Part shown: in pieces, positions 21,420 through 41,120 of the stretch | Layout of the letters: the number at the start of each line of letters is the position of its first letter | How positions within the stretch are numbered: the first letter of the stretch is position 1 | DNA from: a virus | IMG/VR virus record: IMGVR_UViG_3300050029_000153 | Coordinates: 1 to 42,630 of that record | Length of the DNA: 42,630 nucleotides | Direction: 5' to 3' (one strand) | Translations under genes and position numbers: made by a program | The notes under the pieces: generated by a model | The model's database searches: none | What the model was told of the DNA's origin: nothing | Seen by the model: only the letters and a program-made list of their open reading frames with translations

Positions 21420-21659
21420 ATGCAGAAGTTCAAGGACCTCCTCACGCAGGTCCAGTCGCTACTCCAGGGTGAGCCCGCCCTCGTCATCGGCAACGGCGCC
21501 GCCGTCGTCATCTACCTCGTCGCCAAGGCCTTCGGCTTCCAGGACGGCGAGACCTTCCAGGCCGCACTCGGCCAGGCTGCCGCCGCGCTCGTCATCGTGA
21601 ACAGCGCGCTTGTCGCCATCCGCCAGTTCGTCTCACCCGCCACGAAGGTCGGGAGCTAA
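21420..21659 (+). CDS. holin-like membrane protein
   Basis: A 79-residue protein with two hydrophobic segments (about 20-38 and 48-67) and a short polar N-terminus, fitting a small class II holin. AAAGGGAAGCC precedes the ATG. It is last in the lysis group and is followed by a hairpin and a strong promoter for the next unit. Confidence 0.7.
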   Translation: MQKFKDLLTQVQSLLQGEPALVIGNGAAVVIYLVAKAFGFQDGETFQAALGQAAAALVIVNSALVAIRQFVSPATKVGS

Positions 21660-21700
21660 CACCGGCGCTTTCGCGGTCCTAGGCCGATCAGCACCGGGGC

Positions 21701-21724
21701 ACGGGCTCGCTACGGCGGGCCCGT
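21701..21724 (+). terminator. probable terminator of the late operon
   Basis: ACGGGC pairs with GCCCGT, and inside CGC-TACG-GCG forms a stem closed by a very stable UACG tetraloop, with one unpaired base on each side. It follows the lysis genes. There is no long T tract, so efficiency is uncertain. Confidence 0.5.
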
Positions 21725-21731
21725 TGCCATG

Positions 21732-21813
21732 TAGTACGAAAGTACTATGCGGTGTTGGTACTACAGACGCTGTGGACAACGACCTGGTGGGGCGGTATGG
21801 TTGCCATGGCAAC
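21732..21813 (+). promoter_or_regulatory. regulated promoter of the AAA+ gene (copy 1 of a conserved design)
   Basis: In order: TAGTAC-GAAA-GTACTA (21732-21747), GGTACT (21757-21762), 11 bases, -35 TGGACA (21773-21778), exactly 17 bases, -10 TATGGT (21796-21801), and a perfect palindrome GTTGCCATGGCAAC (21800-21813) over the start point. The same order and nearly the same spacing recur before 23301 and 42576. The upstream GTAC elements look like activator or repressor sites and the palindrome like an operator. Confidence 0.75.
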
Positions 21814-21846
21814 TTCGCCAAGGCACACCGGAAGGAACGAACCTCG

Positions 21847-23193
21847 ATGAACCCCACGACCTCGCAGCGCAACGACGGCACCTTCGCCGCCACCGTCTCG
21901 CCCGCCTTCGGGCAGGAGACCGAGACCTGCGTCCACAGCCACTCGAACGAGGCCGCCGCTGCGGCCTGCGGGAACTGGGAAGCCCGCGCAGTCTCCAAGG
22001 GCGAGACCCGATGGCACGCGCCGAAGACCCCTCGCTCCGCCAAGCGCGTCCTCGACTTCGCACCGCTCGCCGTCGGCGAGACCGTCGGTGACGACGATCT
22101 GGCTCACTCGCACGAGTACATCCCGATGCCCGAACTCGCGAAGCTCTGGCACGCTGTCGTGACCGGCGCGAAGTCGCGGCCCGCCACCAACCTGATGTTC
22201 CTCGGGCCCTCGGGCTCAGGCAAGACCGACGGCGCCCGGTACCTCGCCGCGCTGGTTGGCCTCCCCTTCACGAAGGTCGACTCCGCGAGCATGACCGACC
22301 CCGAGGCGTGGTTCGGGACTCGCGAGATCGTCGTCCAGGACGGCGTGGCGGTCACCGAGTACCGCCCGTCCGAGTTCGTCCAGGCACTAGGGAAGCCAGG
22401 CGTGATGCTCATCGACGAGATCAACCGCGTCCGCGACGAGCACCGCAACGTCCTTCTTCCTCTCCTCGACGCGACCCGCGCCGTCACGAACCCGCTCACG
22501 GGCGATGTCGTCGCTCGTCATCCGCAGTGCTTCGTCATCATGGCGGGCAACGTCGGCCTCCACTTCACGGGGACCAACGCCATCGATCCGGCCTTCATGA
22601 CCCGGGCCCTCACGGTCGAGTTCGAGTACATCGACACGACGAACGAGACCCGCATCGTCCAGGACGCCTCGGGCTGCTCCGTTGATGACGCCACCGTGTT
22701 CGTCCGGTTCGCCGGCGAGACCCGCGCCAAGGCCCTCATCGACCCCGAGTTCCTCCCCATCTCGACCCGCGAGCTCATCGAGGCAGGCCGGCTCGTCAAG
22801 GATGGCCTCAGCCGCGACCTCGCAGTCCAGTTCGTCGTCCTCAACGGCGCATCCGCCGAGGGTGGTGCCTCGTCGCTCCGGCAGGAACTCAAGAACATCT
22901 GGAACGGCGTCCGCCTCCTGAAGGCCGAGGTCGCTACGCCAGCGGCCGCGGCCGGCGCCTCGTGGTTCTGCGTCGGCCACCCGAACACGACCCCGAAGCA
23001 CGTTCCCGCCGGCGTCTCCGCCCTCAGCGGGAAGTCCTACAACGCCTTCGACGCCTGCAGCGTCACGGGATGCCCCGGCACGTCGGATCGTCCCGTCGCC
23101 GCCACCGCTGGCAAGGTCTGCCCGGACTGCCACATGCAGCAGGCCATCGGTCGAACCTCCTACTGCGCCAACTGCGGCGCCACGCTCCGCTGA
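21847..23193 (+). CDS. CobS/MoxR-like AAA+ ATPase with C-terminal zinc ribbons
   Basis: A 448-residue protein. Walker A is GPSGSGKT at 120-127 and Walker B is MLIDEINR around 187-194; AGNVGLHFTG and FMTRALTVEF give sensor and arginine-finger regions of MoxR/CobS-type AAA+ ATPases. The last 80 residues hold several Cys/His clusters, including VCPDCH and YCANCG, likely zinc ribbons. Such ATPases act with a VWA-domain partner, which is the next gene. No cobalamin gene is nearby, so a metal-chelatase role is not supported; remodelling of a protein complex is more general. Confidence 0.8.
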   Translation: MNPTTSQRNDGTFAATVSPAFGQETETCVHSHSNEAAAAACGNWEARAVSKGETRWHAPKTPRSAKRVLDFAPLAVGETVGDDDLAHSHEYIPMPELAKLWHAVVTGAKSRPATNLMFLGPSGSGKTDGARYLAALVGLPFTKVDSASMTDPEAWFGTREIVVQDGVAVTEYRPSEFVQALGKPGVMLIDEINRVRDEHRNVLLPLLDATRAVTNPLTGDVVARHPQCFVIMAGNVGLHFTGTNAIDPAFMTRALTVEFEYIDTTNETRIVQDASGCSVDDATVFVRFAGETRAKALIDPEFLPISTRELIEAGRLVKDGLSRDLAVQFVVLNGASAEGGASSLRQELKNIWNGVRLLKAEVATPAAAAGASWFCVGHPNTTPKHVPAGVSALSGKSYNAFDACSVTGCPGTSDRPVAATAGKVCPDCHMQQAIGRTSYCANCGATLR

Positions 23194-23270
23194 ACGAAAG
23201 TACTACGACCACAGGTACTTCCGGCGCGTTGGACAGCCGACGCGCCGGCGGGTATCGTGGCCTAGCCACG
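23194..23270 (+). promoter_or_regulatory. regulated promoter of the VWA gene (copy 2 of a conserved design)
   Basis: ACGAAAGTACTA (23194-23205), GGTACT (23214-23219), 11 bases, TGGACA (23230-23235), 17 bases, TATCGT (23253-23258), then CGTGGC-CTA-GCCACG (23256-23270). Order and spacing match copies 1 and 3 to within one base. The ATG at 23301 has CCGAAAGGAACC upstream. Confidence 0.75.
23221..23248 (+). terminator. perfect 9-bp hairpin around the -35 element
   Basis: CCGGCGCGT and ACGCGCCGG are perfect inverted repeats separated by ten bases that include the -35 TGGACA. It may terminate the upstream AAA+ transcript while the promoter restarts transcription, or act as an operator. No T tract follows. 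Confidence 0.4.
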
Positions 23271-23300
23271 AAGGCACTCGACCCCGAAAGGAACCTCTCG

Positions 23301-25253
23301 ATGACCGACCTCAACCTCCAGGACCTGGACGACTTCGACTCCCCGGAGCTCGAGACCGTCGCGCCCGCCGACCACGGGTACCTCGCCTCGATGTGGGGCG
23401 GCCACTCGTTCCGCGCCGGGTACCGCACGCAGAGCGACATCGCCAACGACACCGTCGTGGCGCACGGGATGGTCCAGACGTTCGTCAACGCCTTCGCACG
23501 CGACGGCAAGTACATCGTCAACTTCAACGCCGCGACCGAGACCGCTGGCACCGACACGAAGGCGCGCACCGTCGTCATCACGCCCGCTCCGATCGCCGAC
23601 TCGAACCTCACCGCCGAGCAGGCGGGCCTCATCCTCACGGGCCTCGCGGTCCACGAGATCAGCCACCCGCGCTACGGGAAGCGCACCGCGAAGGCCGTCC
23701 AGGACACGTTCCCCGGGAACCGAGTCGCGGACCGCCTCTCGAACGTCCTCGACGACGTGCGCATTGAGCGCCGGTTCATCGCCGACTACCCCGGGTACGC
23801 CGGGGTCTTCGAGCCCGTCCTCGACTACGTCGGCAAGGCCTCGACCGCGAAGCACGGCCACTGGAAGGTCACGCTCGCCGAGCCGACCAACCTGGCCATC
23901 GCCGCGATCCGCTACCCGTCCTGCGCGGTCTGGACCGCCGAGACGATGGTCGAGCGGACCTGGTGGACCGATTGGGCCGAACGCGGCTCGAAGGAAGACG
24001 CTCCCGCCCGCCACGTCGGCTTCATCCGCGAGGCCCTCCAGCATATCGCCGACACCAAGCCGGCGCCCGCTCCGAAGGCCGCCAACCAGGCGAAGATGTC
24101 CGGTTCCGCGGCGGGCGCCGCGAGCGAAGCCGCCTCGCAACCGAACGTGGACGCGGACGACGAGCTCGAGGACGCCGGCGAGGACGCTGAGGTCACTCAG
24201 TCGAACCCCGCTCCCGAAGCCGAAACGGCATCCACCTCCGAGAGCAAGGACGCCTCCGGGTCCGGGATGTCCGACGACGATCTCAACGAGGCCACGCAGG
24301 ACGCCGATCCGTCCGCCCGCCTGTACGCCGACAAGCTCCCCGATTGCTCGGGCAGCGAGGCCGTTGACAAGGCCGCGAAGCAGGAAGGTGTCGACGCCGG
24401 CGACATCCGCGGTCTCAAGCAGGACGCGGACCACATGATCGCCAACTCCCGGAACGTCGAGGACGACGGGCACGGGAACGCGGTCGACGTGGCCCGCTCC
24501 GTCCGCGGCATCTCGCACGGTCGGGCAGGCGCCCCGAGCTCGATGGCGATGCGCTACATCCGCAACGCGATCCTCCGCTCGCGGACCGGGAACACCGACA
24601 CGACGGGCTTCCAGAAGCGCGGACGCCTCGACCAGTCGGGCCTCTCCCGCCTCGCCTCGGGTGACGCGCGCATCTTCGAACGCCGCACCGCCCCGGCGCC
24701 CGGGAAGTACCTGGTCTGGCTGATGATCGACTGCTCATCCTCGATGAGAGGCGGGACCATCGAGGATGCGGCTTCCGTCGCGCACGCCATCGCGGCCGCC
24801 ACGGGCGGTACCCCGTCGGTGCGGATGGCGGTCTGGGGCTGGTCCTACCCGTTCCGCCCGTCGCCCGCCGGCACGGGTGTCGCGAAGGTCTGGGAGAGCG
24901 GCCAGGACGTCAACGAGATCTTCCGGGTAACGGGTCTTCGGATGGGCGGGACGCCCGACGCGACCGCGATGAGTTGGTCCGCTCGGGCGATCCTCAAGGC
25001 CCGCCGACACGACGAGACCCCGGTCATCATCTTCGCCTCGGACGGCGCGGGTGACAACAACATGAACCAGCGCGTGGACGAGGCCCGGAAGCTCGGAGTC
25101 GTCGTCAAGTCCGTCTCCTTCGGGTGGGGCTTCTCGCCCGCCGCGCAGGTCGCTCGGTTCGGCCGCGGGAACACCGTCCCGTGGGCGGGATCGATGACCG
25201 CCACCGCTCGCGGGCTGGCCGACCTCTTCGCGAAGATCACGAGCGGGCGATGA
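23301..25253 (+). CDS. CobT-like protein with HExxH and VWA domains
   Basis: A 650-residue protein. HEISH at 118-122 is an HExxH motif, followed by NVLDDVRIERRF, where acidic residues could supply the third zinc ligand. A long acidic low-complexity region (about 255-380) resembles the middle of CobT. The C-terminal VWA domain has a MIDAS motif DCSSS at 477-481 and FASDGAGDN. VWA proteins pair with MoxR/CobS ATPases, and the ATPase gene is directly upstream. A protease, chaperone or inhibitor-removal role is possible; none is shown. Confidence 0.78.
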   Translation: MTDLNLQDLDDFDSPELETVAPADHGYLASMWGGHSFRAGYRTQSDIANDTVVAHGMVQTFVNAFARDGKYIVNFNAATETAGTDTKARTVVITPAPIADSNLTAEQAGLILTGLAVHEISHPRYGKRTAKAVQDTFPGNRVADRLSNVLDDVRIERRFIADYPGYAGVFEPVLDYVGKASTAKHGHWKVTLAEPTNLAIAAIRYPSCAVWTAETMVERTWWTDWAERGSKEDAPARHVGFIREALQHIADTKPAPAPKAANQAKMSGSAAGAASEAASQPNVDADDELEDAGEDAEVTQSNPAPEAETASTSESKDASGSGMSDDDLNEATQDADPSARLYADKLPDCSGSEAVDKAAKQEGVDAGDIRGLKQDADHMIANSRNVEDDGHGNAVDVARSVRGISHGRAGAPSSMAMRYIRNAILRSRTGNTDTTGFQKRGRLDQSGLSRLASGDARIFERRTAPAPGKYLVWLMIDCSSSMRGGTIEDAASVAHAIAAATGGTPSVRMAVWGWSYPFRPSPAGTGVAKVWESGQDVNEIFRVTGLRMGGTPDATAMSWSARAILKARRHDETPVIIFASDGAGDNNMNQRVDEARKLGVVVKSVSFGWGFSPAAQVARFGRGNTVPWAGSMTATARGLADLFAKITSGR

Positions 25254-25471: not shown

Positions 25472-25959
25472 TCCCCGAACTGACCATTGAAGAGTACCGC
25501 GAGATGCGGGCTGAACGATCCGCCTTGGCGCGTTCGTCCGCCGTCACGGGCCAGATCATCTCCGAGCTCTATGCGCGCTGCCAGATCTGCGGCCACTGCG
25601 AGCTCGCAGGCGGCTTCTGCTCGTGGTGCAAGACCGGCGATTACACGCTCGACCTGCACCTCCACCTCAACCCGAAAGAAGGAGCCGCATGCCCCAAGAC
25701 CCGAGTCATCGAGGCCACGTACCACCACCCGAAGAACCCTGGCGTTGGCTCGCCAGCACCGAAGCCCTCCAGCGCGAAGCCTACGGCGCCGATCCCGACG
25801 CAACTCGCGGATCCGTCCAGGCCCAAGCCGAGTCGCTCAAGTGGAACGCTCTTGCGGCGTTCGTCGAGCTCGGCGAGGCGACCCGCGAGTTCTCGTGGAA
25901 GCACTGGGCCTCGGATGGCCCGTTCGTCAACCGCGACCGCCTCCTCGGCGAGCTCGTAG
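25468..25959 (+). CDS. zinc-ribbon protein with out-of-frame overlap
   Basis: A 163-residue reading frame starting with ATG behind GGAAGGAGACC. The first 75 residues look real: a helix, then CQICGHC and FCSWC, a four-Cys zinc site. From about residue 75 onward it overlaps the dUTPase-like gene by 271 bases and becomes Pro/Ser/Arg-rich, as expected of an out-of-frame read. The functional part is probably the N-terminus. Confidence 0.5.
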   Translation: MIPELTIEEYREMRAERSALARSSAVTGQIISELYARCQICGHCELAGGFCSWCKTGDYTLDLHLHLNPKEGAACPKTRVIEATYHHPKNPGVGSPAPKPSSAKPTAPIPTQLADPSRPKPSRSSGTLLRRSSSSARRPASSRGSTGPRMARSSTATASSASS

Positions 25960-26099
25960 ACATCGCCCACTTCATGGGCAACATGCTCATCGCCGTCGGG
26001 GTGACCGACGACGAGTGGGCCGCCGCCTACCAGGCCAAGCAGGCCGTGAACCGTGCCCGTCAGCACGACGGGTACACCGCTCGAAAGGAGCGCGCATGA
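25689..26099 (+). CDS. all-alpha NTP pyrophosphatase (dUTPase/dCTPase/MazG-like)
   Basis: A 136-residue protein with the metal-binding pattern of all-alpha NTP pyrophosphatases: E60 and E63 (FVELGEA), FSWKHW at 68-73, and E88 and D91 (GELVDIAHF). Members hydrolyse dUTP, dCTP or other NTPs to the monophosphate. T4 uses an enzyme of this type to remove dCTP before making hydroxymethyl-dCMP. AAGAAGGAGCCGC precedes the ATG. It lies upstream of a thymidylate-synthase-fold gene, which suits a supply of dUMP or dCMP. Confidence 0.75.
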   Translation: MPQDPSHRGHVPPPEEPWRWLASTEALQREAYGADPDATRGSVQAQAESLKWNALAAFVELGEATREFSWKHWASDGPFVNRDRLLGELVDIAHFMGNMLIAVGVTDDEWAAAYQAKQAVNRARQHDGYTARKERA

Positions 26100-27004
26100 A
26101 AGCGTACCTCGCCGGCCCGATGTCGGGCATCAAGGCCTTCAACATCCCCGCCTTCGACCACGCCGCCAAGATCCTGCGGGAACTCGACTTCGAGGTGGTC
26201 TCGCCGGCGGAAGTTGACGGGCCCGTCACCCGCGCTCAGCTCCTGACGTCGCTCAACGGCGACCACGCGGATCTGCCGCCTTCGGACGGTGGGTGGAGCG
26301 CGTACCTCGCGCGCGACTTCCGGATCCTGGCCGACGACGGCATCGAGGCCATCATCACGCTCCCCGGGTGGAAGACGTCGCGCGGCGCTCGGTGCGAAGT
26401 CGCCGTGGCCGAGGCACTGGGCCTCATGCACATCGAACTCAGCGAGTTCATCGACCTCTTCCCCGACCACGCCGACCTCTTCCCCGACCACGCCGACATG
26501 TCGGTTGACATCCGCGAGGAAGTCCTCCCCTGGCATACGCCGGTCCCGATGGCCGTCCGCAACGCGCCCGGCTTCCAGTCGCCGCGCGTCCACATCGAGA
26601 ACACCCAGACACCGGACGAGGTCTTCCAGTCCTACGAGGACAACCCCGAGCGACAGCGTCAGGTGACCGGCGGCGTGAAGGACAACGCGAGCAAGCCGCG
26701 GGTCGATCTCATCCCGTCGAAGCCGCTCATCGGCGTCGGTCACGTCCTCGCCTTCGGCGCGAAGAAGTACAAGCCCAACAACTGGCGCCTCGGCCTCCGG
26801 TGGTCGGACACCCTCGGGTCGGCGATGCGCCACCTGCTGGCCTTCGCCGACGGCCAGGACCTCGACCCGGAGACGGGTCTCCCGCACATCGACCAGGCAC
26901 TCGCTCAGGTCCTCTTCCAGTCCGAGTACTACCACACCAACACGGGTATCGATGACCGCTGGTCCTCGACGTCCGAGGCCGACCGGGAGGCGGCGAAAGC
27001 ATGA
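26096..27004 (+). CDS. DUF4406 - MazZ-like dATP/dGTP diphosphohydrolase fusion
   Basis: A 302-residue two-domain protein. Residues 1-112 (YLAGPMSG, VVSPAEVDG, TLPGWKTSRGARCEVAVAEALG) fit DUF4406, a nucleoside 2-deoxyribosyltransferase-like fold. Residues about 192-290 (GGVKDNASKPRVDLIP, GAKKYKPNNW, AMRHLLAFADG, ETGLPHIDQ) match the N-terminal domain of phage dATP/dGTP diphosphohydrolases (MazZ). The linker carries a perfect seven-residue duplication. It probably acts on nucleotides, but no PurZ-like gene is present, so 2-aminoadenine DNA is not supported. Confidence 0.75.
   Translation: MKAYLAGPMSGIKAFNIPAFDHAAKILRELDFEVVSPAEVDGPVTRAQLLTSLNGDHADLPPSDGGWSAYLARDFRILADDGIEAIITLPGWKTSRGARCEVAVAEALGLMHIELSEFIDLFPDHADLFPDHADMSVDIREEVLPWHTPVPMAVRNAPGFQSPRVHIENTQTPDEVFQSYEDNPERQRQVTGGVKDNASKPRVDLIPSKPLIGVGHVLAFGAKKYKPNNWRLGLRWSDTLGSAMRHLLAFADGQDLDPETGLPHIDQALAQVLFQSEYYHTNTGIDDRWSSTSEADREAAKA
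26453..26494 (+). repeat. perfect 21-bp tandem duplication in the fusion linker
   Basis: Two identical 21-base units encode the seven-residue unit DLFPDHA twice. They lie in the linker between the two domains. Perfect nucleotide identity suggests recent slippage; the unit preserves frame. Confidence 0.9.
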
Positions 27005-36275: not shown

Positions 36276-37307
36276 ATGAAGATCCTCATGACGGGCATGA
36301 CAGCCCGTGCGGTCGGGTCCACGAAGGTCAAGTACGACTACATCTCGCTACCCGCGATGTATCGTGATGCCCTTCGTGAACTCGGCCATGAGGTTGATAT
36401 GCGAACCACTCGACACGAGGAAGACCTCGATGAGTACGACCGCGCGCTTGTGCTCGTAAACTGGGTGAGTTCGCTGTCATCTGGCCATTCACACGAGACG
36501 GGGCTTGCTTTGGCTAAGCTCGGAGATCGTGCCATTCTCTATGTTGATGATCGCGCGGCCTCGATCATCACGAAAGACATCGACGTAGCTGTGCTGAATG
36601 ATGCAGCTTGGGAGAAGCATACTCGCGGCTTTCGTGGTCGAGAGTACGCGACGATGACTTCAGAACAAGTAGACCTCACTCGTGAAGCTCTCTCTCGGAT
36701 TGCGCTTCCGAATTGCCCATGGCCGATGCTTACGGCGATGTATGACTGGGGTGACCACAGTAAGTTCTTCGGCGCGTCACGTGTAGCTCCTGGCTTTGAA
36801 CTCATCACGGTCGACCCTACCGCAATCCTCCCACCTGCTGAAGTGTGGGACCGTGAACGACAACGAGCTTGGGTCATCGCCATGTTCCAGAACCCTCAGA
36901 AGTGGCTAACAGAAGTCGCTCCTACGTGGCCCGTGACCCAGTATGGCGGAGATCCTAAGCCACGTGGTGGCGGAGCTCACGGAACCGACCATCCAGTCAT
37001 TCCGGAAGCTGAACTTATCCAAGCCTACGCCGATCATCGTGGGATGTTAGTCCCGCCGTCAAAGACAGATGGTTCGGGTTGGTGGCGCGTTCGCTATGCC
37101 TACGCGCTTCTCGCCGGAGCTATTGTCTTCCCGCCGCCGCTGGATGGTGAGGCTATTGGCCCGTCATTCACTAACAGCTTAGAAGACATCGAAGCCGCGA
37201 GTGATGATGAACTCGAAGCACTCGCCCAACGTCAACGCGAGCAAATGGCCGCATGGACGTGGCCGAAAGACAAGTTCATGTTTGAGCTTGAGAAAGCTGT
37301 GCAATAG
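36276..37307 (+). CDS. GT-B-like glycosyltransferase, copy 1
   Basis: A 343-residue protein paralogous to the next gene. It starts KILMTG, has VGSTKVKYD, LGHEVDMR, LVNWVSSLSS and YVDD in the N-terminal half, and QYGGDPKPRGGG and DGSGWWRVRYAYALLAG in the C-terminal half, like the two Rossmann domains of GT-B enzymes. The layout resembles T4 beta-glucosyltransferase, but that is a pattern comparison only. Codons are more A/T-ended than in neighbours, suggesting recent acquisition. A GAAAGGAGC lies 13 bases before the ATG. Confidence 0.55.
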   Translation: MKILMTGMTARAVGSTKVKYDYISLPAMYRDALRELGHEVDMRTTRHEEDLDEYDRALVLVNWVSSLSSGHSHETGLALAKLGDRAILYVDDRAASIITKDIDVAVLNDAAWEKHTRGFRGREYATMTSEQVDLTREALSRIALPNCPWPMLTAMYDWGDHSKFFGASRVAPGFELITVDPTAILPPAEVWDRERQRAWVIAMFQNPQKWLTEVAPTWPVTQYGGDPKPRGGGAHGTDHPVIPEAELIQAYADHRGMLVPPSKTDGSGWWRVRYAYALLAGAIVFPPPLDGEAIGPSFTNSLEDIEAASDDELEALAQRQREQMAAWTWPKDKFMFELEKAVQ

Positions 37308-38356
37308 TGAAGATCCTGATGACGGGTTTCGCCGCACGCGGCATCGGAAGCACCCGCACTCGCTATGACATCACGTCACTCCCGGACGGGCTAGGCCGGG
37401 CTCTGAGGCACTTGGGCCATGAAGTCGATGGACCGCGCAGGGTGCCCTACGACGAGCCTCTCAGTGGATCTGAGGACCTGGTCATGGTGCAGGTTGGTTG
37501 GACCTCTTCGCTATCATCGTCCTACGCGCATGAAGCCGCGCGCGTGATGGCCGACGCGGAGGAGTTGGGCATCCCGGTGCTGCGCTACGTCGATGACTGG
37601 CGTTCACAGTGGCTGGCCGATGACATCATGGGGCACGTGGTGAGCGACAAGGGCTGGCGGCTGCACACGGAGCGGTTCCGCGCGAAGGAATACGCGAGCA
37701 TCTCAGCCCATGACAAGGAGCGCTTGCGCAAGGCACTTGCTGGGCCGATCAACGGCGCACCCGTGATGGTGCCGTTGATGGGCTGGGGCAACCCAACACT
37801 GTTCGATGTGTCTCGGAGTGCTTCGCTGTCGCGCGTTGTGCCGTTCGATCCACAGAGCCTCTTCCCCACGGTGCCCACGAACTTAGCGAGTGACTTTGTG
37901 CGGCAACGGCGTTGGGTGCTGGCCTCACTGCAAGAGCACGACAAATGGGCGAGTTCACTTGGTTTGTCGTGGGATGTCCTGCGATTGGGCGGGGTGAAGA
38001 AGAACCCCGGCGGCACGGTCATCGCTGGCATGTCGCAGCCCGTCCTGCCGGAGGCGGCAGTCCTTCAGCACTATGCGGAGTCTTGGGGCGTGCTGTCCCC
38101 TCCCTACCTGTCTGCTGGGAGTGGCTACTGGCGCACGCGCTTCGCGCAGGCCATTGATGCCGGGTGCTTGATCTGGCCCGGTGAAGTGGATGCTAGTGCA
38201 TTGGGCACTGCGTTCGTTCCTCCGGCGGTTGTCGAACTCATGTCCACGAGCGAGTTGGTTGCGCTCGCGGATGCGCAAGCCGCTACGCTTGACTCGTTTC
38301 GGATGCCGCTAAATGCCACCTATGATGCTCTCGCTAAGCTCGTTTCTAGAGTATGA
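37307..38356 (+). CDS. GT-B-like glycosyltransferase, copy 2
   Basis: A 349-residue paralogue of the preceding gene. KILMTG, GSTRTRYD, SLPDGLGRALRHLGHEVD, SSLSS and YVDD are shared, and VLPEAAVLQHYAESWGVL plus AGSGYWRTRFAQAIDAG match the C-terminal half of copy 1. It begins at a GTG sharing one base with the upstream stop. Codons are closer to the phage average than those of copy 1. A DNA-base sugar transferase is proposed because of the dCMP-modifying enzyme; another acceptor is possible. Confidence 0.55.
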   Translation: MKILMTGFAARGIGSTRTRYDITSLPDGLGRALRHLGHEVDGPRRVPYDEPLSGSEDLVMVQVGWTSSLSSSYAHEAARVMADAEELGIPVLRYVDDWRSQWLADDIMGHVVSDKGWRLHTERFRAKEYASISAHDKERLRKALAGPINGAPVMVPLMGWGNPTLFDVSRSASLSRVVPFDPQSLFPTVPTNLASDFVRQRRWVLASLQEHDKWASSLGLSWDVLRLGGVKKNPGGTVIAGMSQPVLPEAAVLQHYAESWGVLSPPYLSAGSGYWRTRFAQAIDAGCLIWPGEVDASALGTAFVPPAVVELMSTSELVALADAQAATLDSFRMPLNATYDALAKLVSRV

Positions 38357-38606: not shown

Positions 38607-38807
38607 ATGAGACGAGAACAGATGACGCCGCAGTGTGAGAGGGCCGGTCGCGAGATTGAACCCCACCGTACCCGTCCGTACCACACACGGGAGGCGCTCG
38701 TGAAGGCGGCTCCTGAGGCATTCGGGCGTCACTTCATCACTGCGCGTCGGCCCCTCATCGCGCCCTCGCGCGTAGGCGCGTACACAAGCACCGGAGTCGA
38801 ACGATGA
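38607..38807 (+). CDS. small basic protein opening the packaging operon
   Basis: Sixty-six residues, rich in Arg, His and Ala, from the apparently leaderless ATG. It ends with an ATGA overlap into the small-terminase candidate. No family recognised. A role in DNA binding is possible from its charge only. Confidence 0.5.
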   Translation: MRREQMTPQCERAGREIEPHRTRPYHTREALVKAAPEAFGRHFITARRPLIAPSRVGAYTSTGVER

Positions 38808-39289
38808 CCGGCCCTGCAATTGGTTCCACATGCTCCGTCTGCCTATCGCCTCAGGTGAAGCAGATCGACGCTGAACTCGAGCGTGCTGTCATGTCGCGCC
38901 GGCGGATCGCGCGCCAGTTCTCCCTGCTCCCGGACGCCGTGAACCGTCACTTCCACAACGGCCATGTTGTGCAAGTTGTACAGCCCGCTGGCTCCGGCGA
39001 TCCACTCCCGCTGACCGGCACCATCGAGGAGAAGCTCGAGTGGCTCATCACCAAGCTCGAGGGGGCGATCACCCGCGGCCAAGTAAGATCCGACGTGATC
39101 CGCGAGCTGCGCATGCTCTACCAGGCGCAACTCGAGGCCAAGGGCCCTGTCGCGATCCAGGCCACCACCTATAAGGACGTGGAGGGGTGGCAGGACTACG
39201 AGGCGGCGGTCTACGAGGCGCTCGGCCCGTTCCCCGAAGCAAGAATGGCGCTCGCTAAGGCACTGCGCGCCAGGCTCGGCCACGAATGA
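38804..39289 (+). CDS. terminase small subunit candidate
   Basis: A 161-residue protein two genes upstream of the large terminase. CSVCLSP near the N-terminus may bind metal, and SRRRIARQFSLLPDAVNRHF at about 32-51 is a good HTH, as in terminase small subunits that recognise DNA. Residues 65-130 form helices suited to ring assembly. The EndoVII-like gene lies between it and terL. Confidence 0.6.
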   Translation: MTGPAIGSTCSVCLSPQVKQIDAELERAVMSRRRIARQFSLLPDAVNRHFHNGHVVQVVQPAGSGDPLPLTGTIEEKLEWLITKLEGAITRGQVRSDVIRELRMLYQAQLEAKGPVAIQATTYKDVEGWQDYEAAVYEALGPFPEARMALAKALRARLGHE

Positions 39290-39681
39290 AGCACATTCAC
39301 GTCGTCACGTGCCCGAGGAACTGTCGTGCAGCGGTCCCGCGCCACTACAAGGCGCCGAATGGAGGTCAACGGAAGCAACGACTGGGTGGTGCGCACGGCG
39401 GAGGCCAGGGGCTCAGCGCCGCAGAGGTGGCGTACCAGATCCAGCTCCAGGGCGGTGTCTGCATGATCTGCCAGCGCGTCCCGACTGACCGGTTCGAGAT
39501 CGACCACGACCATGACCGCGCCGTGGCGGAGGGCCATCCACACGACCCGACAAAGGGGTGCAAGGGGTGCTTCCGCGGGATGATCTGTCGCCAATGCAAC
39601 TCGGGCCTCGGCTTCTTCCGCGACGACATTGAGTCCCTCCGCCGCGCCGTGCGGTACCTCGAGCTCGCTCGTGAACGCTGA
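39286..39681 (+). CDS. endonuclease VII-like resolvase
   Basis: A 131-residue protein matching recombination endonuclease VII: Cys59 and Cys62 (VCMIC), IDHDHD at 72-77, then FRGMICRQCN (Cys101, Cys104) followed by LGFFRDD and RRAVRYLE. These enzymes cut branched DNA and T4 gp49 clears branches during packaging. Its place inside the terminase operon fits that role. Confidence 0.85.
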   Translation: MKHIHVVTCPRNCRAAVPRHYKAPNGGQRKQRLGGAHGGGQGLSAAEVAYQIQLQGGVCMICQRVPTDRFEIDHDHDRAVAEGHPHDPTKGCKGCFRGMICRQCNSGLGFFRDDIESLRRAVRYLELARER

Positions 39682-40453
39682 CCAGCTCCTCATCGAGCGG
39701 CATCTCGGGGCAATCGACCCCACCTACACGTTCGAGCAGGCGTTTGGGTACGCGCCGCTCAAGTGGCAGATCCCGTACCTGTGGGAGCACAGGAACTGCG
39801 TCATCTTGAAAGGCCGCCAGGTCGGCGCGTCCACCTGCGCCGCCTGCCTCGCCATACAACTGACCCGGACCACACCTAACAGCCTCGCCGCCATCGTGTC
39901 TCCGTCCATGAAGCAGTCCACGGAGGTCAAGCTGCGGGCGAAGAACGGGCTCCTGCGCCTCGGCGAGAAGCTGGTGCTCGACTCCGCCACGGTGATCGGC
40001 CTCGACAACGGCGCCCGGATCATGTCATTGCCAGGGAGCGCGAAGAGTGTCCGAGGGTGGACCGCGGACCTGCTCGTGATCGATGAAGCAGCGTTCCTCG
40101 ACCCCGACACGTTCTTGGCCGCTCGGGCCACCGTGGCCACCGGCGGTCGGGTCATCGTTCAGAGCACCCCGGCGGCGCCCTACGGGCACTTCTACGACCT
40201 CTTCACGGCCCAAGACCCGCTCTGGGCGAAGTTTCAGGTCTCCTCCGAGGACGTGACGACCATCGACCCCGCCTTCCTGGCCTCCGAGCGCGCGACACTG
40301 GGCCCCGAGGAGTACGCGCAGGAATACCAGGGCAAGTTCACCGCTGCTGGAGTGGGGCTCGTGGACCCCACCAAGCTCAACACGCTCACGAAGCAGGACG
40401 CGCCCGCCGGGGTCTGGGGCAAGATGCGGGGCGGCCCCGTGGCGAGCGCATGA
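39671..40453 (+). CDS. terL: terminase large subunit, ATPase half (split gene)
   Basis: A 260-residue protein with terminase ATPase motifs: Walker A-like LKGRQVGAST at 46-55, Walker B LLVIDEAA with Asp138 and Glu139, and QSTPAAP as the coupling motif. It ends in YAQEYQGKFTAAG plus about 30 residues, exactly where the nuclease domain normally begins. The nuclease is encoded separately at 40566. It powers DNA translocation into the capsid. The GTG start overlaps the EndoVII gene. Confidence 0.85.
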   Translation: MNADQLLIERHLGAIDPTYTFEQAFGYAPLKWQIPYLWEHRNCVILKGRQVGASTCAACLAIQLTRTTPNSLAAIVSPSMKQSTEVKLRAKNGLLRLGEKLVLDSATVIGLDNGARIMSLPGSAKSVRGWTADLLVIDEAAFLDPDTFLAARATVATGGRVIVQSTPAAPYGHFYDLFTAQDPLWAKFQVSSEDVTTIDPAFLASERATLGPEEYAQEYQGKFTAAGVGLVDPTKLNTLTKQDAPAGVWGKMRGGPVASA

Positions 40454-40569
40454 TCGTCCACTTCACCGCGATGTGGCAGGTCTTCGCGGCCTCCGTGGCC
40501 ATCGGGCTGCTGGTCTATGCCATCGCGGGACTCCTGGCGCTGGCCTACCTGGCCTGGCGCGCCCGATGA
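40450..40569 (+). CDS. 39-residue membrane peptide between the terminase halves
   Basis: It starts with an ATGA overlap on the ATPase-half stop and ends with an ATGA overlap on the nuclease-half start. Residues about 10-34 (VFAASVAIGLLVYAIAGLLA...) form one membrane span, with a basic WRAR end. Coupled junctions on both sides argue that the interruption is real, not an assembly error. Its role, perhaps a membrane-associated moron, is unknown. Confidence 0.65.
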   Translation: MIVHFTAMWQVFAASVAIGLLVYAIAGLLALAYLAWRAR

Positions 40570-41120
40570 GGCTCCGGGTCGGCGTGGCCATGGCACCGAA
40601 GGGCGGTCGGACGGGGCTCGTCGTGGCCGAGGTCCTCGAGCGTCGGACGAGCCTCATGAAGCGTGAATATTCTTACATCGTCGGCCACGTGGACCGGATC
40701 ACCCCGCCGACGGTCGAAGAGGCCGCCGACCGGGTGGTCGCGCTGGTGAGGAACATCGCGGACGAGAAGCCCTGCGTCATGGTCGACACCACAAGCCCGC
40801 AGGGCGTGGCCCTCCGCGTCGCTCTCAACGAGCGGATGCCCGCCGGCCTCCACAAGGCCCACGCGATGGAGGGCGCCGGCATCTACAAGGACCTCTTCAG
40901 TGGCTTCCTCCAGACCTACAGCGCGTCGCGCGTCGCGTTCGAGCCGGGGTTGGACTACCGCGGGGAGCTCGACCGCTCGCTGGTGTTCTACATGGGCGGC
41001 GGCGTGGCCAAGCACGGCTTCGAGATCACCTCCGAGGACGAGGCACTCGTCGTGGCGCTCGGGCTGGCGCTCTTCTGGCCCCGCCACGGCGGGAAGGCGC
41101 GCATTCTGGACTATGACTAG
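40566..41120 (+). CDS. terL: terminase large subunit, nuclease half (split gene)
   Basis: A 184-residue RNase H-fold protein. It begins at the first strand of the terminase nuclease domain (LRVGVAMAPKGGRTGLVVAEV). Asp74 (VMVDTTSPQG) and Asp158/Glu159 (SEDEALVVALGLALF) match the second and third acidic positions. At the first position, where terminases have Asp (vGvDpa), this protein has Ala-Met. It should cut concatemers, if active, together with the ATPase half. Confidence 0.75.
   Translation: MRLRVGVAMAPKGGRTGLVVAEVLERRTSLMKREYSYIVGHVDRITPPTVEEAADRVVALVRNIADEKPCVMVDTTSPQGVALRVALNERMPAGLHKAHAMEGAGIYKDLFSGFLQTYSASRVAFEPGLDYRGELDRSLVFYMGGGVAKHGFEITSEDEALVVALGLALFWPRHGGKARILDYD

Follow-up and report, generated by a model that had tools for sequence, protein, structure and literature searches.

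Models of viral DNA translocation have the two domains of the large terminase subunit (TerL), an ATPase and an RNase H-like nuclease, moving against each other while linked. When T4 gp17 is split at the linker, translocation is abolished and the ATPase and nuclease activities are kept, and a nuclease-dead gp17 still packages linear DNA (PMC3012670). The catalytic triad of the T4 nuclease consists of D401, E458, and D542 (PMC3012670), and the residues D294, D347, and D429 are essential to G20c TerL (PMC5389553). The C-terminal domain of phi29 gp16 is a vestigial TerL nuclease which has lost the catalytic residues and kept DNA binding (PMC7672431). Other nucleases also act in packaging. T4 endonuclease VII (gp49) binds the portal, where it is placed to repair branched, packaging-arrested DNA (PMC3012670), and the HNH protein gp74 of HK97 stimulates cos cleavage by TerL (PMC9410871).

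Here, a metagenomic phage locus is described in which the two TerL domains are encoded by separate, overlapping ORFs. I found no description of a two-gene TerL lacking an intron or intein in the collection of open-access papers searched. Some actinophage annotations label a terminase "ATPase domain" and "nuclease domain" separately, and thus other split cases may exist.

The terminase block and its relatives

The window, meaning the whole 42.6 kb virus record analysed in this study, has a GC content of about 0.66 and carries siphophage genes for the portal (3576), major capsid (6705), tape measure (14111), and minor tail (16842) proteins. Between the capsid and head-tail genes, the segment 7727-11319 encodes a cytidylyltransferase, a glycerophosphotransferase-like protein, and a protein with two galactosyltransferase-like parts, which suggests sugar modification of the capsid, DNA, or host wall. 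Two adjacent genes at 21610-25253, conserved in the relative G001 (see below), match PHROG families labelled as porphyrin and cobalamin biosynthesis and are CobS/CobT-like; the first of them (E=3.5e-28) encodes an AAA ATPase. A single ORF at 25487-27004 combines a DUF4406 domain with the N-terminal domain of a dATP/dGTP diphosphohydrolase. The neighbouring genes at 36276-38356, both starting with MKILMTG, look like tandem paralogues, and a similar protein is encoded upstream of the terminase block of the relative G053 (L086:121-1197).

Five genes are tightly packed at the right end of the window, from 38804 to 41120 (Table 1). The ORFs, starts, stops, and coordinates given in the original prediction, which had been made without database searches, are all correct. 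This includes both ATGA overlaps (40450-40453 and 40566-40569), by which the ATPase half, a short peptide, and the nuclease half are joined in three different frames. A codon-usage score trained on the long genes of the window favours the ATPase frame to about 40425; it then favours the peptide frame from 40455 to 40545 and, from about 40575 to 41085, that of the nuclease half. The open nuclease frame reaches back as far as 40254, and the choice of 40566 as its start is therefore based on homology, on codon usage, and on the overlap. The protein of the first gene has no family match in Pfam and PHROG searches; it is conserved in both relatives (33-46% identity) and is a putative small terminase, judging from its position upstream of TerL.

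Table 1. Genes of the terminase block of the window phage
Gene product	Position	Strand	Remarks
Putative small terminase-like protein	38804..39289	+	CxxC and helix-turn-helix-like motif; opens the coupled block
Endonuclease VII family (His-Me finger)	39286..39681	+	Overlaps the ATPase start; Pfam Endonuclease_7 E=7.5e-16
TerL ATPase half	39671..40453	+	Terminase_6N E=5.8e-15; C-terminal end in the interdomain linker
39-aa single-span membrane peptide	40450..40569	+	ATGA overlap at either end; window phage only
TerL nuclease-fold half (RNase H fold)	40566..41120	+	Structure model and alignments; Ala8 replaces the first catalytic Asp

Is this arrangement found in related phages? The search revealed two relatives of the window phage (G000) with the same split, both metagenomic. 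In G001 (IMG/VR 3300049484_000153), the TGA stop codon of the ATPase gene and the GTG start codon of the nuclease half share one GTGA overlap. In G053 (IMG/VR 3300029957_000012), which was located through a major-capsid search, the two halves overlap directly by ATGA. Compared with the window phage, the identities in the two relatives are about 67/57% for the ATPase half and 49/56% for the nuclease half. For both halves, dN is clearly lower than dS, with dS near saturation. Among 91 TerL homologues or loci, these two relatives are split, contig ends interrupt four, and one is a truncated remnant. The other 84, counting those whose frame could be followed and including some near-identical contigs, are continuous. 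The remnant (L130) was rejected as a split TerL, for it is truncated and has no nuclease ORF behind it. Nuclease-only matches in a viral structure library, from Caulobacter phage Sansa and Nodularia phage kac68v162, are no examples of a split either, since both phages have a separately annotated full-length TerL gene. Thus, the predicted break at the domain boundary recurs in two further assemblies. The split at the domain linker, with both halves coding, is real and is a property of this clade.

The two halves and the upstream endonuclease

The ATPase half is a clear TerL homologue. Its Pfam Terminase_6N score is 56 bits, where the cutoff is 22, and it also matches PHROG 7579 "terminase large subunit" (E=4.9e-30), intact TerLs by hhalign (E=5e-36, residues 14-237), and T4 gp17 (E=3e-11). 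Its Walker B motif, LLVIDEAAF, is intact. The P-loop is deviant, reading KGRQ[VI]GAST in the three split phages (KGRQVGAST in the window), with an Ala for the usual Lys and a Lys at the first place; the closest intact relatives of these ATPases have the canonical P-loop Lys. The K.RQ.G.S type of P-loop is also present in two other TerLs of the set (L005 and L093), and lambda gpA is a known P-loop deviant of the same kind. I read the ATPase half as a working ATPase.

The nuclease half has no sequence match in Pfam, PHROGs, NCBIfam, PDB, or GenBank phages and no relatives in a pattern-limited scan of bacterial and archaeal genomes, and its profile comparison with intact TerLs is weak. However, an AlphaFold model built from the three sequences (pLDDT 76.3, pTM 0.79) has the fold of a TerL-type RNase H-like nuclease. 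In VIA-align, the model matches the HSV-1 terminase complex with a Z score of 15.4 (rmsd 2.8, 153 aligned), followed by E217 (15.3), Sf6 (15.3), and HCMV (15.2) and then by T4 (14.6), G20c (14.2), SPP1 (12.7), and HK97 (10.9). All matches down to Z 10.9 are terminase nucleases, and RuvC appears at 10.6 and below. The original prediction would have been refuted had this half lacked a nuclease fold; the modelled fold does not refute it. The match covers approximately residues 1-178 of the model, whose residue 1 pairs with residue 394 of T4, 287 of G20c, 259 of SPP1, and 456 of HCMV.

The active site is altered in this predicted fold. Strand 1 reads GVAM, GVAM, and GAAM in the three phages, at the place where intact TerLs have G-x-D in the alignment. 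Provided that strand 1 is gapless, Ala8 falls on D401 of T4 and D294 of G20c, and the sequence alignment concurs. The second active-site position is kept as D74, and the third is E159 or A160, with a one-residue ambiguity between models. Thus, what had been predicted as a nuclease is a TerL nuclease in its modelled fold, while its first catalytic Asp is an Ala in all three phages. Because of this replacement, the nuclease-fold half is probably a weak or dead nuclease. Conservation is strong in the rest of the domain (KGGR, VFYxGGGV, SEDEALVVALGLA), which is therefore kept for something.

Some residual nuclease activity may persist, given that the other active-site positions are acidic (D74, E157-D158-E159). 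An alternative is a nuclease-active two-subunit terminase. Here D74, E157, D158, E159, and E22 would replace the missing Asp, and the upstream endonuclease VII would only debranch concatemers, much as T4 gp49 repairs branched, arrested DNA at the portal (PMC3012670). The invariance of D74 and the SEDE cluster in the three phages fits such an enzyme. On the other hand, the strand-1 Asp that these phages have lost is indispensable in G20c (PMC5389553), and an active nuclease half is in my judgement a tentative possibility, the less favoured one.

The endonuclease VII gene lies directly upstream of the TerL ATPase gene in all three split phages. Its product belongs to the PF02945 family by sequence, with the zinc cysteines and the D-H-D-H...N motif invariant in the three phages. 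A narrow three-sequence profile detected this gene at the three split loci and at none of the other TerL loci examined. Since the nuclease-fold half is probably weak or inactive, concatemers are likely cut with or by the upstream endonuclease VII.

The membrane peptide and the junction

The original prediction also described a 39-codon gene with one membrane span in the gap between the halves, and hydropathy and codon usage agree with this. The best 19-residue hydropathy of the peptide is 2.41, with one predicted span. Its codon score is +0.43 per codon, whereas both remaining forward frames score -0.41. By codon position, its GC content is 0.68/0.47/0.92, a pattern that the neighbouring genes share. 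Thus, the peptide looks like genuine coding sequence rather than a frameshift by-product. The window contains only 18 hydrophobic ORFs of 25-200 aa, this one among them, and a coding signature is seen in few of the 18. The C-terminus, WRAR, is predicted to be cytoplasmic by the positive-inside rule. As for a role as the only holin of the phage, a separate 79-aa candidate exists at 21420-21659. In G053, a gene for a 99-aa multi-span membrane protein (L086:3973-4272), by eye unlike the 39-aa peptide, follows the nuclease half.

The original prediction treated the peptide as the insert in a split TerL. The junctions of G001 and G053 lack it and are equally split, and no copy of it was found elsewhere in G001. 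The peptide as the cause of the split is therefore not supported, nor is it a property of the clade. Most likely, it arrived at a locus that was already split; the alternative is that the relatives have lost it. The simplest reading, given its absence in the relatives, is that a small membrane-protein gene landed at a permissive start-stop junction. Could the peptide instead have a function in the packaging machine or in its regulation, perhaps by anchoring the two halves at the membrane or by setting when the nuclease half is made? In favour of this, it is a coding sequence that lies between the TerL halves and is coupled to each of them. However, the relatives do without it, and no tblastn match was obtained among phages; a packaging role is unlikely.

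It is more improbable still that TerL is one protein in the cell, made by programmed frameshifting that bypasses the peptide or by an intron that joins the halves. Group I introns do rejoin split terL genes in the Jug phages (PMC12363816), and introns or homing nucleases had been named as the usual cause of split TerL genes. Here, neither a group I or II intron nor an intein was found between the halves. Rfam gave no intron match at a permissive threshold, nor any in the whole window, and the 4-nt overlaps of the relatives leave no room for one. No slippery heptamer was seen by eye at the G001 junction, and the RNA fold of the junction is no stronger than that of shuffled sequences (z=0.64). 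Finally, although the split in the window rests on a single metagenomic contig, a sequencing or assembly error, already considered unlikely in the original prediction, or a decaying pseudogene is hardly credible, since two diverged assemblies carry the same split, with dN below dS for both halves and codon usage intact.

A proposed two-subunit large terminase

Based on these results, I propose that the three phages have a natural two-subunit large terminase whose halves reassemble, with DNA cutting performed with or by endonuclease VII and with the membrane peptide as a later guest. I assign this reading a probability of about 0.72. The clade ancestor would already have had its TerL divided over two genes, with the break in the linker that joins the ATPase to the nuclease fold. 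Since the stop and restart codons overlap (GTGA/ATGA), translational coupling probably yields both halves from a single mRNA. The resulting proteins would most likely reassemble non-covalently on the portal, where the ATPase half would drive translocation and the RNase H-fold half may serve as a coupler, supplying DNA contact and portal docking. Endonuclease VII, from the gene next upstream, would cut the concatemers or help to cut them. In the window phage alone, a later insertion probably placed the 39-aa peptide gene at the junction, coupled to its neighbours; its product is likely a small membrane protein of unrelated function. A stronger version holds that the motor works without a covalent ATPase-nuclease link, that the nuclease domain is a separate, dead coupling subunit, and that cutting has been handed over to endonuclease VII; taken in full, it is a speculative proposal that I put forward with some doubt. 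The T4 result is the strongest argument against a simple two-subunit picture. Because splitting at the linker abolishes translocation by gp17, a split motor would need compensating contacts.

How does this locus compare with known systems? The TerLs of Thermus phage Riverbug and Meiothermus phage MMP17 (T4 gp17-like, Terminase_6) share 34-38% identity with the ATPase half and have the same domain order. In these TerLs, however, both domains are on a continuous polypeptide, the P-loop Lys is canonical, and the Asp of strand 1 is present. The C-terminal domain of phi29 gp16 resembles the nuclease half of the window phage in having a TerL nuclease fold without the catalytic residues. However, it is fused to the ATPase and has a reduced fold, and phi29 packages unit-length genomes and uses a pRNA. 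HK97 gp74 and T4 gp49 are likewise His-Me finger nucleases tied to packaging, but TerL is single and nuclease-competent in HK97 and T4, whereas the association of endonuclease VII with the split terminase is one of gene linkage. The TerL coding sequence is also interrupted in intron-split terL genes (PMC12363816) and by TerL inteins (PMC7156551). These are spliced back to one protein, in contrast to the start-stop overlap at the domain linker found here. The artificially split T4 gp17 (PMC3012670) is broken at the linker, as is the terminase described here; the artificial halves lose translocation, while the natural split is conserved across three phages, all known from metagenomes and without isolates. 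The natural split is of interest precisely because gp17 does not translocate when cut at this place. With motor, coupling, and cutting functions on different proteins that could be purified apart, the conserved split would allow the need for a covalent link between the two TerL domains to be tested directly.
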